Source: Opitutus sp. GAS368
GTDB taxonomy: Bacteria; Verrucomicrobiota; Verrucomicrobiia; Opitutales; Opitutaceae
NCBI RefSeq assembly: GCF_900104925.1
Contig: NZ_LT629735.1
Span: forward strand, 528,291 to 592,290
DNA: 64,000 nucleotides
Reading direction: 5' to 3'
In this document: piece by piece, positions 13,164 through 63,650 of the stretch
Numbering within the stretch: position 1 is the stretch's first letter
Layout: each line of letters opens with the position of its first letter
Notes under the pieces: model-generated
The model's input: only the letters and a program-made list of their open reading frames with translations
What the model was told of the DNA's origin: nothing
The model's database searches: none
Translations under genes and position numbers: made by a program

Positions 13164-13270
13164 CTCCGACGACTAGCCGACCGCGCTGCGGACGCAATAC
13201 GCTTAAACGCGTTGCCGCGACTTGAGCTGCCCGCGCCATTCCCGTCCTACGTCGCGGGAACTTCGGCAAG

Positions 13271-13341
13271 GTGGAACCCGGCCTCCGGACGGGTTGGTTT
13301 GGGCGCATACCCTGAAAACCCGTCCGGAGGCCGGGTTCCAT
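13271..13341. repeat. Family B palindrome (GTGGAACCCGGCCTCCGGAC ...)
   Basis: This almost perfect inverted repeat (arms 13271-13295 and 13316-13341) lies between valS and the hydrolase gene. The arms read GTGGAACCCGGCCTCCGGAC and its complement. Copies occur at 23401-23586 (interrupted) and 56771-56842. Confidence 0.88.
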
Positions 13342-13346
13342 CTAAA

Positions 13347-22338: not shown

Positions 22339-22489
22339 AAGGATCCAGAGGCGTGGCTACCCGTGCACATCGCGCTGGATTCTTCGCTGCGTTCAGCATG
22401 ACAGGTTTGGGGAATCCATCCGTGTGAATCCGTGCAATCCGTGGTTAAACCATCTTGCCGTTCCAAAGGCTGGCCGTCAGCGTCCGGTC

Positions 22490-23401: not shown

Positions 23402-23430
23402 GGTGGAACGCGGCCTCCGGACGCGTTTTT

Positions 23431-23542
23431 GGGTAGTGGATCAGTTTGGTTTCTCCGCTGTTGTAGGTCGGAGTTTATCCCCGACAGATCGCGCGGAATG
23501 TCGGGCATAAAGCCCAACCTACATCAAACTGACCCACTACCC
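23431..23542. repeat. Palindrome nested within family B, flanked by GTTTTT(G) direct repeats
   Basis: GGGTAGTGGATCAGTTTGG (23431-23449) pairs with the complement ending CCCACTACCC (23524-23542). GTTTTTG occurs on both sides (23425-23431 and 23543-23549), resembling a 6-7 bp target-site duplication. Confidence 0.78.
23462..23523. repeat. Family A palindrome, innermost of three nested elements
   Basis: The terminal TGTAGGT/ACCTACA arms enclose CGGAG-tttat-CCCCG and TCGGGC-ataa-AGCCC-type hairpins. It sits in the loop of the palindrome at 23431-23542. Confidence 0.8.
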
Positions 23543-23594
23543 GTTTTTGCCCGCTCGCCAAACCCGCCCGGAGGTCGGGTTCCACCTTCCATCC

Positions 23595-24821: not shown

Positions 24822-24902
24822 TGTAGGGCGGGATCACCGTATCCCGCCTCGAACGTGATATCGTTCTCAAACGAAGGCGGGATGCGGTGATCCCGCCCTA
24901 CA
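24822..24902. repeat. Family A dual-hairpin palindrome (GTAGGGCGGGATCACC subtype)
   Basis: TGTAGGGCGGGATCACC and GGTGATCCCGCCCTACA enclose two GC-rich hairpins (GGCGGGAT...ATCCCGCC twice) joined by TCGAACGTGATATCGTTC. The same linker appears in the copy at 32978-33058. Confidence 0.92.
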
Positions 24903-32977: not shown

Positions 32978-33058
32978 TGTAGGGCGGAGTCACCGCACCC
33001 CGCCTCGAACGTGATATCGCGCTCGGCCAGAGGCGGGGTGCGGTGACCCCGCCCTGCA
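32978..33058. repeat. Family A dual-hairpin palindrome
   Basis: TGTAGGGCGG and CCGCCCTGCA enclose two hairpins joined by TCGAACGTGATATCG, nearly the linker of the copy at 24822-24902. The gap 32901-33135 between the divergent rpsU and dnaE otherwise shows nothing distinctive. Confidence 0.88.
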
Positions 33059-36768: not shown

Positions 36769-36779
36769 TGCCTTGGTTT

Positions 36780-36861
36780 GTCATTCTGAGCGCAGCGAAG
36801 AATCCAGCAGTATGAACGCCAGCGCACATCATTCTGGATCCTTCACTTTGTTCAGGATGAC
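36780..36861. repeat. Family C palindrome (GTCATTCTGAGCGCAGCGAA ...)
   Basis: GTCATTCTGAGCGCAGCGAA opposes an imperfect arm ending TTGTTCAGGATGAC, with ATCCAGCA and TCTGGATC in between. It lies between dnaE and the rsmB-like gene. Confidence 0.85.
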
Positions 36862-36872
36862 ACGTCTCTAAC

Positions 36873-38054
36873 ATGGCCGAATCCAAGATCATCAACAACG
36901 CCGCCCGGGTGCTGAAGCTCGTGGCGGCCGGCACACCTGCCGACCAGGCGCTGCGTGAATCACTGACGCAGGACCGGCACTTCACCGCCCCGGCCGAGCG
37001 GCGCGGCATCAGCCGCGCGGTATTCGCCTATTTCCGCTGGTGGCGCTGGCTGGAGCCCAAGGACTCGCCGCAAAAGCAGCTCGCCGCCGCCCTGGAGCTG
37101 CAAAAGCGCTTCGACGCCAACCCCGCCGGCTTCAAGCCCGAGGCGCTCGCCGACCGCGCCGTGCCGGACTGGTTGAAGGATGAAATGGCCTGGCCTGAAT
37201 CGGTAGGGGCCGTTGCCCCCAACGGCCCGATCAGGGCGCTTGAGGGCAAGCGCCCCTACCCGACTGAAACCGCCTGGTTACAGCAACTCCAGCGCGAACC
37301 CGCGCTCTGGATCCGCGCCAAGGCCGGCACCGGCATCGCACTGACCAAAAAGCTCAGCCATTGCATCCCCGCCTCCCAGTCGCCTGACGCGTTGCGCTAC
37401 ACCGGCCTGACCGATCTTTACCGCACCAAGGAATTCCAAGCCGGCGAGTTCGAGATCCAGGACCTCGCCTCGCAGCTGGTCGGGCTCGCCGCCGCGCCCA
37501 AGCCGGGGGAAACCTGGTGGGACGCCTGCGCCGGCGAAGGCGGCAAGACGATGCATCTTTCCGACCTGATGCAGAACAAGGGCCTGCTCTGGGCCAGCGA
37601 CCGCTCCGTGCGCCGGCTGGCCAAGCTCAAGGACCGCGCCGCCCGCGCCCAGGTCTTCAATTTCCGCGCCGCGCCGTGGGAAGGCGACGCCAAGCTGCCG
37701 ACCAAGACGAAGTTCGACGGCATTCTCGTGGACGCCCCATGCAGCGGCGTCGGCACCTGGCAGCGCAACCCGCACTCGCGCTGGACCACGTTGCCCAAGG
37801 ACGTTCACGAACTCGCCGCCGTGCAGCAGAAGCTGCTCAATAACGTTGCCGGCTCGCTCAAGCCCGGCGGCCGGCTGGTCTATACCGTATGCACGCTCAC
37901 CCGGGCCGAGACTGCTGATGTGGCGGCGAAATTCACCTCCGAGCATTCCGGGTTCGAGCCGTCCTCTGTCCTCGGTCATCCGTCCCCTGTCACCCTCTGG
38001 CCACACGACCTGAACGCGAACGGGATGTTCATCGCAATCTGGAGAAAGAGGTAG
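36873..38054 (+). CDS. RsmB/NOP2-type rRNA (cytosine-C5) methyltransferase
   Basis: This 393-residue SAM-dependent RNA m5C methyltransferase has an N-terminal NusB-like helical region, a SAM-binding fold (WWDACAGEGGKTMHLSDLM), motif IV with the cysteine that assists product release (DAPCSGVGTWQRNP) and motif VI with the catalytic Cys (YTVCTLTRAE). It ends LNANGMFIAIWRKR. Two pieces look foreign: residues 111-129 (VGAVAPNGPIRALEGKRPY) are encoded by a complete family A palindrome, and the SSVLGHPSPV segment comes from a family H-like stretch. The stop codon lies in another palindrome. RsmB is the best-known relative, but the exact target base is not proven. Confidence 0.88.
   Translation: MAESKIINNAARVLKLVAAGTPADQALRESLTQDRHFTAPAERRGISRAVFAYFRWWRWLEPKDSPQKQLAAALELQKRFDANPAGFKPEALADRAVPDWLKDEMAWPESVGAVAPNGPIRALEGKRPYPTETAWLQQLQREPALWIRAKAGTGIALTKKLSHCIPASQSPDALRYTGLTDLYRTKEFQAGEFEIQDLASQLVGLAAAPKPGETWWDACAGEGGKTMHLSDLMQNKGLLWASDRSVRRLAKLKDRAARAQVFNFRAAPWEGDAKLPTKTKFDGILVDAPCSGVGTWQRNPHSRWTTLPKDVHELAAVQQKLLNNVAGSLKPGGRLVYTVCTLTRAETADVAAKFTSEHSGFEPSSVLGHPSPVTLWPHDLNANGMFIAIWRKR
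37203..37259. repeat. Complete family A dual-hairpin palindrome inside the rsmB-like gene, in frame
   Basis: GTAGGGGC and GCCCCTAC enclose GGCCGTTG-cccc-CAACGGCC and GGGCGCTTG-aggg-CAAGCGCCC. The element is 57 bp and begins exactly on a codon boundary, so it adds 19 codons without a stop. Confidence 0.92.
37961..37992. repeat. Family H-like stretch inside the rsmB-like gene
   Basis: GTCCTCTGTCCTCGGTCATC followed by CGTCCCCTGTCA resembles the right arm of the repeat at 2563-2671. It encodes S-S-V-L-G-H-P-S-P-V-T. Confidence 0.5.
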
Positions 38055-50838: not shown

Positions 50839-50852
50839 GACTCCCCTCCTTT

Positions 50853-50990
50853 GTCACTCTGAGCGGAGCGAAGAATCCATCGGCCTGTCCGCCAGCGATC
50901 ATCATTTTGGATTCTTCGCTGCGCTCAGAATGACACGCCTTGGTTGCTTCCGCCTCTTCGTGCACTTCGTGTCCTTCGTGGTTATTTCCC
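50853..50990. repeat. Family C palindrome plus family E arm
   Basis: The C element (50853-50934) runs from GTCACTCTGAGCGGAGCGAA to TTCGCTGCGCTCAGAATGAC. It is followed by CTTCGTGTCCTTCGTGGTTA (to 50984), whose TTA (50982-50984) is the stop codon, read as TAA, of the Gfo/Idh gene on the minus strand. Confidence 0.85.
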
Positions 50991-56770: not shown

Positions 56771-56842
56771 AGGTGGAACCTGACCTCCGGGCAGGTTATT
56801 CGTGCGCGCGCCCAAAACCCGTCCGGAGGCCGGGTTCCACCC
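56771..56842. repeat. Family B palindrome upstream of lipB
   Basis: GGTGGAACCTGACCTCCGGG faces CCGTCCGGAGGCCGGGTTCC; the gap between the divergent lysS and lipB genes is otherwise plain. Confidence 0.85.
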
Positions 56843-58457: not shown

Positions 58458-58536
58458 TGTAGGGCGGGATCACCGCATCCCGCCGGTTCGTGATCAGGGC
58501 GATATTCCAGGCGGGATACGGTGATCCCGCCCTACA
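58458..58536. repeat. Family A dual-hairpin palindrome (GTAGGGCGGGATCACC subtype)
   Basis: TGTAGGGCGGGATCACCGCA and TACGGTGATCCCGCCCTACA enclose two hairpins joined by GGTTCGTGATCAGGGCGATA. It directly follows the lipA stop. Confidence 0.92.
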
Positions 58537-61660: not shown

Positions 61661-61830
61661 CTCCGCGGATTACACAGATGAACGCGGATGAATACTCTAG
61701 ATTGTCATTTTGAGCGCAGCGAAGAATCCAGGACGATGCACGCCGGCGGACACACTGATAGATTCTTCGCTGCGCCCAGAATAACGGTTATCTGAATTTA
61801 TCCGTGTTAATCCGTGTCATCCGTGGTTAA
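61661..61830. repeat. Family D palindrome with a family C palindrome inside
   Basis: The outer arms are GCGGATTACACAGATGAACG-like (61661-61693) and TCCGTGTTAATCCGTGTCAT-like (61800-61830). The inner family C element spans 61704-61785 (GTCATTTTGAGCGCAGCGAA ... TTCGCTGCGCCCAGAATAAC). The arrangement equals the pre-insertion state of the IS110 site at 21045-22444. Confidence 0.85.
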
Positions 61831-62545: not shown

Positions 62546-62605
62546 GTAGGGCGAATCCTCCGGATGAGCCGCGAATCAACGGCTCGTCGGGACGACTCGC
62601 CCTGC
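62546..62605. repeat. Family A-like dual-hairpin palindrome
   Basis: GTAGGGCGAATCCTCCGG faces GGACGACTCGCCCTGC, with a GAGCCG...CGGCTC hairpin in the middle. It separates the convergent MBL and YtkA-like genes. Confidence 0.78.
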
Positions 62606-63506: not shown

Positions 63507-63543
63507 GGGTGGAACGTTTCGCCGCCCCTAAATCTCACGATTT

Positions 63544-63625
63544 GTCATTCTGAGCGTAGCGAAGAATCCAGCATGATACACGCCGACGGTCATGTTGATG
63601 GATTCTTCGCTACGCTCAGAATGAC
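63544..63625. repeat. Family C palindrome
   Basis: This is the best-preserved family C copy: GTCATTCTGAGCGTAGCGAA (from 63544) faces TTCGCTACGCTCAGAATGAC (to 63625). It lies between the SCO-like and YtkA-like genes. Confidence 0.95.
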
Positions 63626-63650
63626 AGCAAAATACATTTTGCCGGCTCGC

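Follow-up and report, generated by a model that had tools for sequence, protein, structure and literature searches.

An in-frame REPIN in an RsmB-like methyltransferase gene of an Opitutaceae bacterium, and repeat inserts of several families in protein loops of its relatives

The window analysed here is a stretch of 64,000 nucleotides from the single-contig, 4.15-Mb genome (4,150,783 bases) of the Opitutaceae bacterium Opitutus sp. GAS368. Within it lies an intact gene for an RsmB/F-type 16S rRNA m5C methyltransferase-like protein that carries a palindromic repeat inside its reading frame. In profile searches, the product of this gene matches Pfam Methyltr_RsmB-F (E 1.5e-39). Its matches to the NCBIfam RsmB equivalog models all fall under the cut-offs, and therefore the name 'RsmB-like' is used. 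Because of these scores, and because other RsmB/F-like matches are present elsewhere in the same genome, the gene may be dispensable, which counts against the main reading proposed below. The features at the locus, in window coordinates, are as follows.

36873..38054, forward strand: RsmB/F-type 16S rRNA m5C methyltransferase-like gene, 393 aa, intact, insert-bearing (open reading frame, Pfam, NCBIfam)
37200..37268, forward strand: 69-nt segment by which the window gene exceeds the commoner same-genus loop length (120 nt, versus 189 nt in the window, over the compared stretch)
37202..37260, forward strand: REPIN made of two inverted GTAG-tagged REPs (unit 37203-37259 of the initial annotation)
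37202..37228, forward strand: left REP, 27 nt, with GGTAG, a 9-bp stem and a 4-nt loop (from the fold)
37229..37233, forward strand: spacer GATCA, 5 nt (from the sequence)
37234..37260, reverse strand: right REP, 27 nt, inverted (from the fold and from copy comparison)

A separate dispersed palindromic repeat, TCATTCTGAGC...GAAGAATCCA, occurs in the window at 36778-36880, 22339-22403, 50851-50953, 61702-61804 and 63542-63644, and one of its copies extends to the start codon of the RsmB-like gene.

The initial annotation had described a 57-bp palindrome, GTAGG...CCTAC, lying in frame within this gene, and its coordinates, frame and peptide prove exact. The gene opens with an ATG at 36873, its codon 111 begins at 37203, and the 57 nt from 37203 to 37259 correspond to the stop-free codons 111-129, with the predicted translation VGAVAPNGPIRALEGKRPY. 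With one additional G and C at its ends, the unit becomes a 59-nt strand that forms two 9-bp hairpins and a GGTAG/CTACC closing stem. The fold of this single-stranded DNA is predicted at -24.5 kcal/mol (z -6.1), and none of 200 dinucleotide shuffles was equally stable. Both hairpins have GGTAG at their outer ends, and the 9-bp stems, 4-nt loops and 27-nt units in inverted pairing lie within the dimensions of GTAG REPs and REPINs (stems of about 6-9 bp, units of 20-40 nt). The stems of the right and left REPs differ (GGGCGCTTG versus GGGCCGTTG, respectively), the spacer between REPs varies from copy to copy, and the 27 nt of the left REP recur alone, as a single REP, at genome position 3139970. 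The 69-nt segment is bounded by CTGAA at 37195-37199 and 37264-37268; these exact limits (37200-37268) are putative, and so is a reading of CTGAA as a target duplication, a signal that is absent over 85 copies of the element.

The sequence of the element recurs across its own genome with E values down to 4.6e-19, and thus is not a product of chance. Twenty-eight distinct places were listed, one of which (genome position 2288492) was dropped as a chance match inside a gene. This leaves at least 27 places, comprising 24 REP pairs and three single REPs, a minimum because only 40 of 44 candidates were scored. Matches to the family are contained in 16 of 21 genomes of the genus, own genome included, with 46 in G017, 39 in G005, 20 in G011, 19 in G019 and 17 in G009, some places being counted on both strands. 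The copies are many per genome and mainly intergenic, as is typical of GTAG REPs and REPINs. Among the fetched loci, those of relatives bearing labels such as Opitutus, Lacunisphaera, Oleiharenicola or Opitutaceae, 86 of 106 elements are '+-' pairs. In the window, the rsmB copy is the sole member of its REP family found. Its kinship with the intergenic elements termed 'family A' in the initial annotation (24823-24901, 32979-33057 and 58459-58535) stands for the shared architecture, whereas identity of the sequence family is ruled out, as those elements belong to another REP family (GTAGGGCGGGATCACCG). Further inverted-pair REP families (GGTGGAACCCGG, GTAGGGCGAGTC and GTAGGGCGGGATC) are present in the window at 13270-13342, 23402-23586, 56772-56841, 62546-62605, 24823-24901, 32979-33057 and 58459-58535.

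Inverted ends, small size and the CTGAA on either side of the rsmB copy are also features of a MITE moved by a DDE transposase. However, no target-site duplication was detected over 85 REP pairs, for which the longest word common to both flanks averaged 3.08 versus 3.06 when permuted. The internal hairpins and the existence of single 27-nt REPs likewise argue against a MITE. A DDE-type MITE with target duplication was rejected on the evidence of the 85 pairs, and we regard this origin as extremely unlikely. The absence of such duplications, a property of GTAG REPs and REPINs, is expected of Y1 enzymes.

Homologues of the RsmB-like protein reveal the loop without the insert. In 25 of the 29 homologues aligned first, only 5-6 residues are present where the window gene has 29, the exceptions being L019, L029, L030 and L041. 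Addition of named loci gave 102 distinct homologues, of which 99 span the loop. The short form, with 27-28 residues between fixed motifs, is present in 83 of these 99 proteins, and the other 16 are longer, at 31-61 residues, compared with 51 for the window protein. The insert is missing from L021 and L127, which are the nearest homologues and make up the sister group of the window gene (clade of three, 100/97). The clean gap that had been anticipated for relatives is therefore observed. An equally long loop lacking the palindrome, the pattern that the initial annotation had set against an insertion, is true only of a minority, as 16 of 99 loops are longer and four of these are repeat-bearing or repeat-derived.

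A comparison with repeat families covered five of the 16 longer loops (L124, L019, L029, L138 and L158). L124 has the rsmB element, and L019, L029 and L138 carry or derive from other repeats; the score of the L158 insert was reached by 21 of 200 shuffles. L029 holds a different palindrome (CCCTCCGTAGTCCCGCTGAGCGGGACGAAGGAGGG) that occurs at three more places in its own genome (E 9.1e-8 to 5.6e-4), and its shuffle score is circular because the CCTCCGTAG consensus was taken from L029 itself. L138 contains a decayed relative of the L029 insert and is counted solely as such. The imperfect CCTCCGTAG piece in L019 did not score above shuffles against the CCTCCGTAG consensus (57 of 200), and L019 is counted on three more places in its genome, of 26-39 nt, that match with E values of 1.9e-5 to 8e-4. 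Relatives also have inserts of 6-28 residues, several of low-complexity appearance (e.g. L150, L151 and L155), in two further loops, around residues 170 and 369 in window numbering. Since these loops gather inserts as well, permissiveness is not peculiar to REPINs, a point against the main reading.

L124, which comes from a groundwater Opitutia genome with 15 matches to the rsmB-element family, encodes a protein 76% identical to that of the window and has this element at the corresponding loop. Over its 55 nt, the L124 element shows no difference from a copy in the CusA gene of the window genome. On the main gene tree, built from 59 chosen rows out of 103 distinct, L124 falls outside the 21-row clade that contains the window gene (100/96). 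Constraining them to group lowers the log-likelihood by 96 units (p 3.7e-47, a guide only, as the pair was picked for its insert and after the first tree). The 24 REP pairs in the genome, the in-frame CusA copy and this same-loop copy in a non-sister lineage bear out the earlier suggestion that the element moves as a unit. Parsimony on the 59-row tree yields five state changes at the loop, or four if L158 is grouped with its sisters. Repeat inserts at this loop are recurrent: the gene tree requires no fewer than four changes, and the family of the window element occurs there a second time in a non-sister lineage.

Because change counts cannot separate gain from loss, we also considered an ancestral REPIN that was deleted from the loop in most lineages, leaving the window gene and L124 as two survivors. 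These two genes have the flanking residues WPE...PTE in common, and their element DNA is nearly the same. However, the genes are distant on the tree, as the cost of joining them attests, and two changes explain the presence of this family in rsmB, whereas one ancestral gain needs many in-frame losses. The identity of the L124 element with the CusA copy of the window genome favours recent arrival, and retention from an ancestor is judged decidedly improbable.

An AlphaFold2 model of the RsmB-like protein, computed from a 64-row alignment, has a mean pLDDT of 93.6 and a pTM of 0.90. The only stretch of at least three residues with a pLDDT below 50 is 114-119, which lies inside the insert, and averages are 52 for residues 111-120 and 64 for residues 121-130. 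The model places the insert between helices 99-103 and 130-139, in keeping with the loop location that the initial annotation had foreseen. Among solved structures, none aligns over the insert, and matches start at residue 138 or beyond. The modelled insert is probably disordered. What is established comprises the REP family with its many copies, the position of the insert within the reading frame, the homologues that lack it and its location in a low-confidence part of the model.

A second in-frame REP pair of the same genome resides in a gene for a CusA/CzcA heavy-metal pump. The closest relative of this protein, L114 (96% identical over 1027 columns), has no insert, and at this loop L104 carries a REPIN of another family, GTAGGGCGGGATC (0 of 200 shuffles as good). 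For the inserts of L110 and L105, 19 and 13 of 200 shuffles, respectively, reach the score. DNA identity between the window-genome gene (L103) and L114 is 67% over the 15 codons past the insert, compared with 89-98% in the next four 15-codon blocks, and the residues after the insert resemble those of other insert-bearing relatives. This drop beside the insert suggests that short recombination may have played a part.

A more general proposal would be that short-tract recombination between species carried loop and insert together, rather than a new transposition occurring each time. The CusA pattern, in which a gene so close to its empty sister resembles insert-bearing relatives just past the insert, speaks for this proposal. 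The rsmB codons directly upstream of the insert, however, differ between the window gene and L124. Moreover, neighbouring lineages carry different families in HrpA and CusA, and so the insert itself is not what they share. We consider this explanation unlikely.

The coding copies extend to further genes. A codon-usage scan scored 103 elements in the fetched loci, three of 106 having no flank, and found six REPs inside genes with coding signal on both sides and one open frame. These reside in the genes for the RsmB-like protein, CusA, HrpA (L242), a monomeric isocitrate dehydrogenase (L252, a single REP), a penicillin amidase (L085) and a helicase (L220). The figure of six in 103 is a lower bound because the scan was limited to fetched loci and missed three of four HrpA copies. 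Two coding-looking pattern hits, in L066 and in L073 at 861, were taken for chance and dropped. In a seventh case, a REP pair forms the C-terminus of citramalate synthase (L003, genome positions 2969665-2969726), providing its final residues together with the stop codon. For isocitrate dehydrogenase, a motif search read seven of 19 loci, and the clean-gap argument is weak because the loop length varies in relatives. Repeats of the CCTCCGTAG...GAAGGAGGG kind were also observed in frame in linkers of dihydrolipoamide acyltransferases (L097 in G018 and L100 in G035), of both the succinyltransferase and the pyruvate dehydrogenase type, and in the UvrA gene L098 of G018. REPs have been reported by Di Nocera et al. 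(PMC3733652) for both of the uvrA genes in Opitutus terrae.

In HrpA, the insert site is readable in 18 genomes of the genus, own genome included (19 rows, two from one gene; L310-L327 and L329). Between FYA.. and the next conserved block, two residues are present in five of these genomes and 24-39 in the other 13. For nine of these 13, the insert matches a REP family better than any of 200 shuffles does, and three families are represented. The rsmB-element family is present in G011, G017, G009 and G005, the GGTGGAACCCGG family in the window's own genome, G012 and G010, and the GTAGGGCGAGTC family in G018 and G020. A GTAGGGCGAGTC-type query matches 75 times in G000, 36 times in G018 and 50 times in G020, many places being counted on both strands. 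Scores of the weak or unassigned inserts were reached by 4 (L316), 146 (L317), 200 (L318) and 1 (L320) of 200 shuffles. On a quick tree of HrpA, families are mixed with empty sites: L313 (GTAGGGCGAGTC) is next to the empty L326, and L319 is next to the empty L324. Likewise, L322 (rsmB-element family) adjoins L316, a weak match to another family, and L315 adjoins the weak L320. The copies in the four genomes with the rsmB-element family display differing decay and look partly inherited, a point in favour of ancestral insertion followed by loss.

An insert could also be kept for a function, as an RNA hairpin or a peptide, beyond being tolerated. The GTA-GGG frame is read in 11 of 11 coding copies found (six scan genes, L003, L124 and three further HrpA copies), and the rsmB element is almost unmutated. 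The GGT-AGG frame is likewise open in the first REP and would encode an Arg- and Cys-rich peptide. Against a selected role, most relatives do without the insert (short loop in 83 of 99), the HrpA site is filled by unrelated families in one species and another, and HrpA copies decay yet stay in frame. Such a role is very unlikely.

GTAG REPs and REPINs are expected to have a cognate RAYT gene flanked by the same REP, and the own genome has nine Y1_Tnp matches. L009 and L010 are identical Y1 genes of 152 codons with an IS200-like appearance, and the other seven were termed RAYT-like from their palindromic flanks (GTAG, GGAG or GGTGG). L012-L015 are flanked on either side by hairpins of the GTAG or GGAG type, as determined by script, and L011, L016 and L017 have GTAG or GGTGG palindromes alongside, as judged by eye. 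REPs of the kinds GTAGGGCGAGTC and GTAGGGCGGGATC adjoin the Y1 genes L016 (by eye) and L013, respectively. The search covered the own genome and six relatives, five of which had matches, and no RAYT flanked by the rsmB-element REP was found within about 1.5 kb on each side of the nine own and 26 relatives' matches. The nearest flanking REP class is GTAGGGGCG...CGCCC, located beside L014, L253, L264 and L272; 3-mismatch REP matches beside L016 and L254 were taken for chance. When the Y1 proteins of the own genome were compared by tblastn with the remaining fetched loci, L164 and L165 alone were matched. Because no RAYT with these flanks was found, a RAYT acting in trans is the presumed source of movement.

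Our preferred reading, to which we assign a probability of roughly 0.8, is that a GTAG REPIN inserted into a short inter-helix turn upstream of the methyltransferase domain and was retained in frame, and that the rsmB, HrpA and CusA loops are permissive sites. A RAYT, a Y1 tyrosine transposase, would move the REPIN through a single-stranded hairpin intermediate (GGTAGGGGCCGTTGCCCTCAACGGCCC hairpin), and the REPIN would land in the turn between two helices. The insert would be retained because its length keeps the frame, the landing frame is stop-free and the 23-24 added residues could form a flexible loop. The peptide is presumably translated and harmless, and selection would purge copies with stops, frameshifts or bad placement. 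One loop each in the RsmB-like protein, HrpA and CusA would thus accept whichever repeat family is active in the lineage.

A bolder and rather doubtful extension is that such positions in housekeeping genes act as landing pads, at which a resident REPIN is replaced repeatedly by unrelated families so that the loop is rewritten from species to species. Replacement might proceed by targeted insertion into or beside an old element, or by REP-REP recombination. This proposal goes further than a loop that merely tolerates insertions.

If the preferred reading of tolerated insertion is correct, new peptide sequence arises from selfish DNA that persists within conserved genes, and the rsmB copy, with its empty relatives and confident structure model, is a clear example of one such event. 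The presence of different REPIN families at one HrpA position in close species makes targeted versus tolerated insertion testable, and the pattern is relevant to the mechanism of REPIN movement. A genome-wide test of such repeated arrival at a single position is warranted.

Several known systems invite comparison. Rickettsia palindromic elements are palindromes found in frame in unrelated protein genes (Ogata et al. 2000, as described in the available portions of PMC3733652 and PMC10969869). According to the same portions, the first such elements were about 150 bp (PMC10969869), and those of R. conorii end in CGTC (PMC3733652). The initial annotation had noted the resemblance, and the analogy holds, as in-frame insertion affects known protein genes here too (rsmB-like, CusA, HrpA, isocitrate dehydrogenase and others). 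Membership does not: the rsmB element has GTAG ends with no CGTC tag at one end, is 59 nt long and comes from another phylum.

REPINs are defined by Bertels and Rainey (2011, PMC3116915, in the portion available) as two inverted REPs that form a hairpin, with the pair proposed as the mobile unit and single REPs as remnants. REPs adjoin RAYT genes, and how REPINs move is called unresolved in that portion. The rsmB element is similarly an inverted REP pair whose REPs also occur singly. Unlike the SBW25 REPINs described there, which occupy extragenic space, the rsmB copy is intragenic, and a cognate RAYT was not found in the Y1_Tnp search.

The closest parallel is with the GTAG REPs within open reading frames reported by Di Nocera et al. 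(2013, PMC3733652). Judged by titles and abstract openings among the matches listed, with most subscription journals outside the scope, no other paper concerns GTAG REPs inside genes of Verrucomicrobia. In the accessible part of that report, such REPs come mostly from Opitutus terrae and are often dimers that encode 20-30 residues. The recB genes of two Xanthomonas species carry different REPs at roughly the same site, and loops and linkers are proposed as tolerated sites. The rsmB element likewise is a GTAG-tagged hairpin dimer wholly inside an open reading frame, and O. terrae is a relative of the window organism. It differs in organism and apparently in gene. Because intragenic GTAG REPs are already known from O. 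terrae, the rsmB case is a clear example of an ordinary kind. What is new relative to the accessible part of PMC3733652 is the recurrence of repeat inserts at the rsmB loop, the set of empty homologues, the gene trees, the structure model and the occurrence of several families at one HrpA position.
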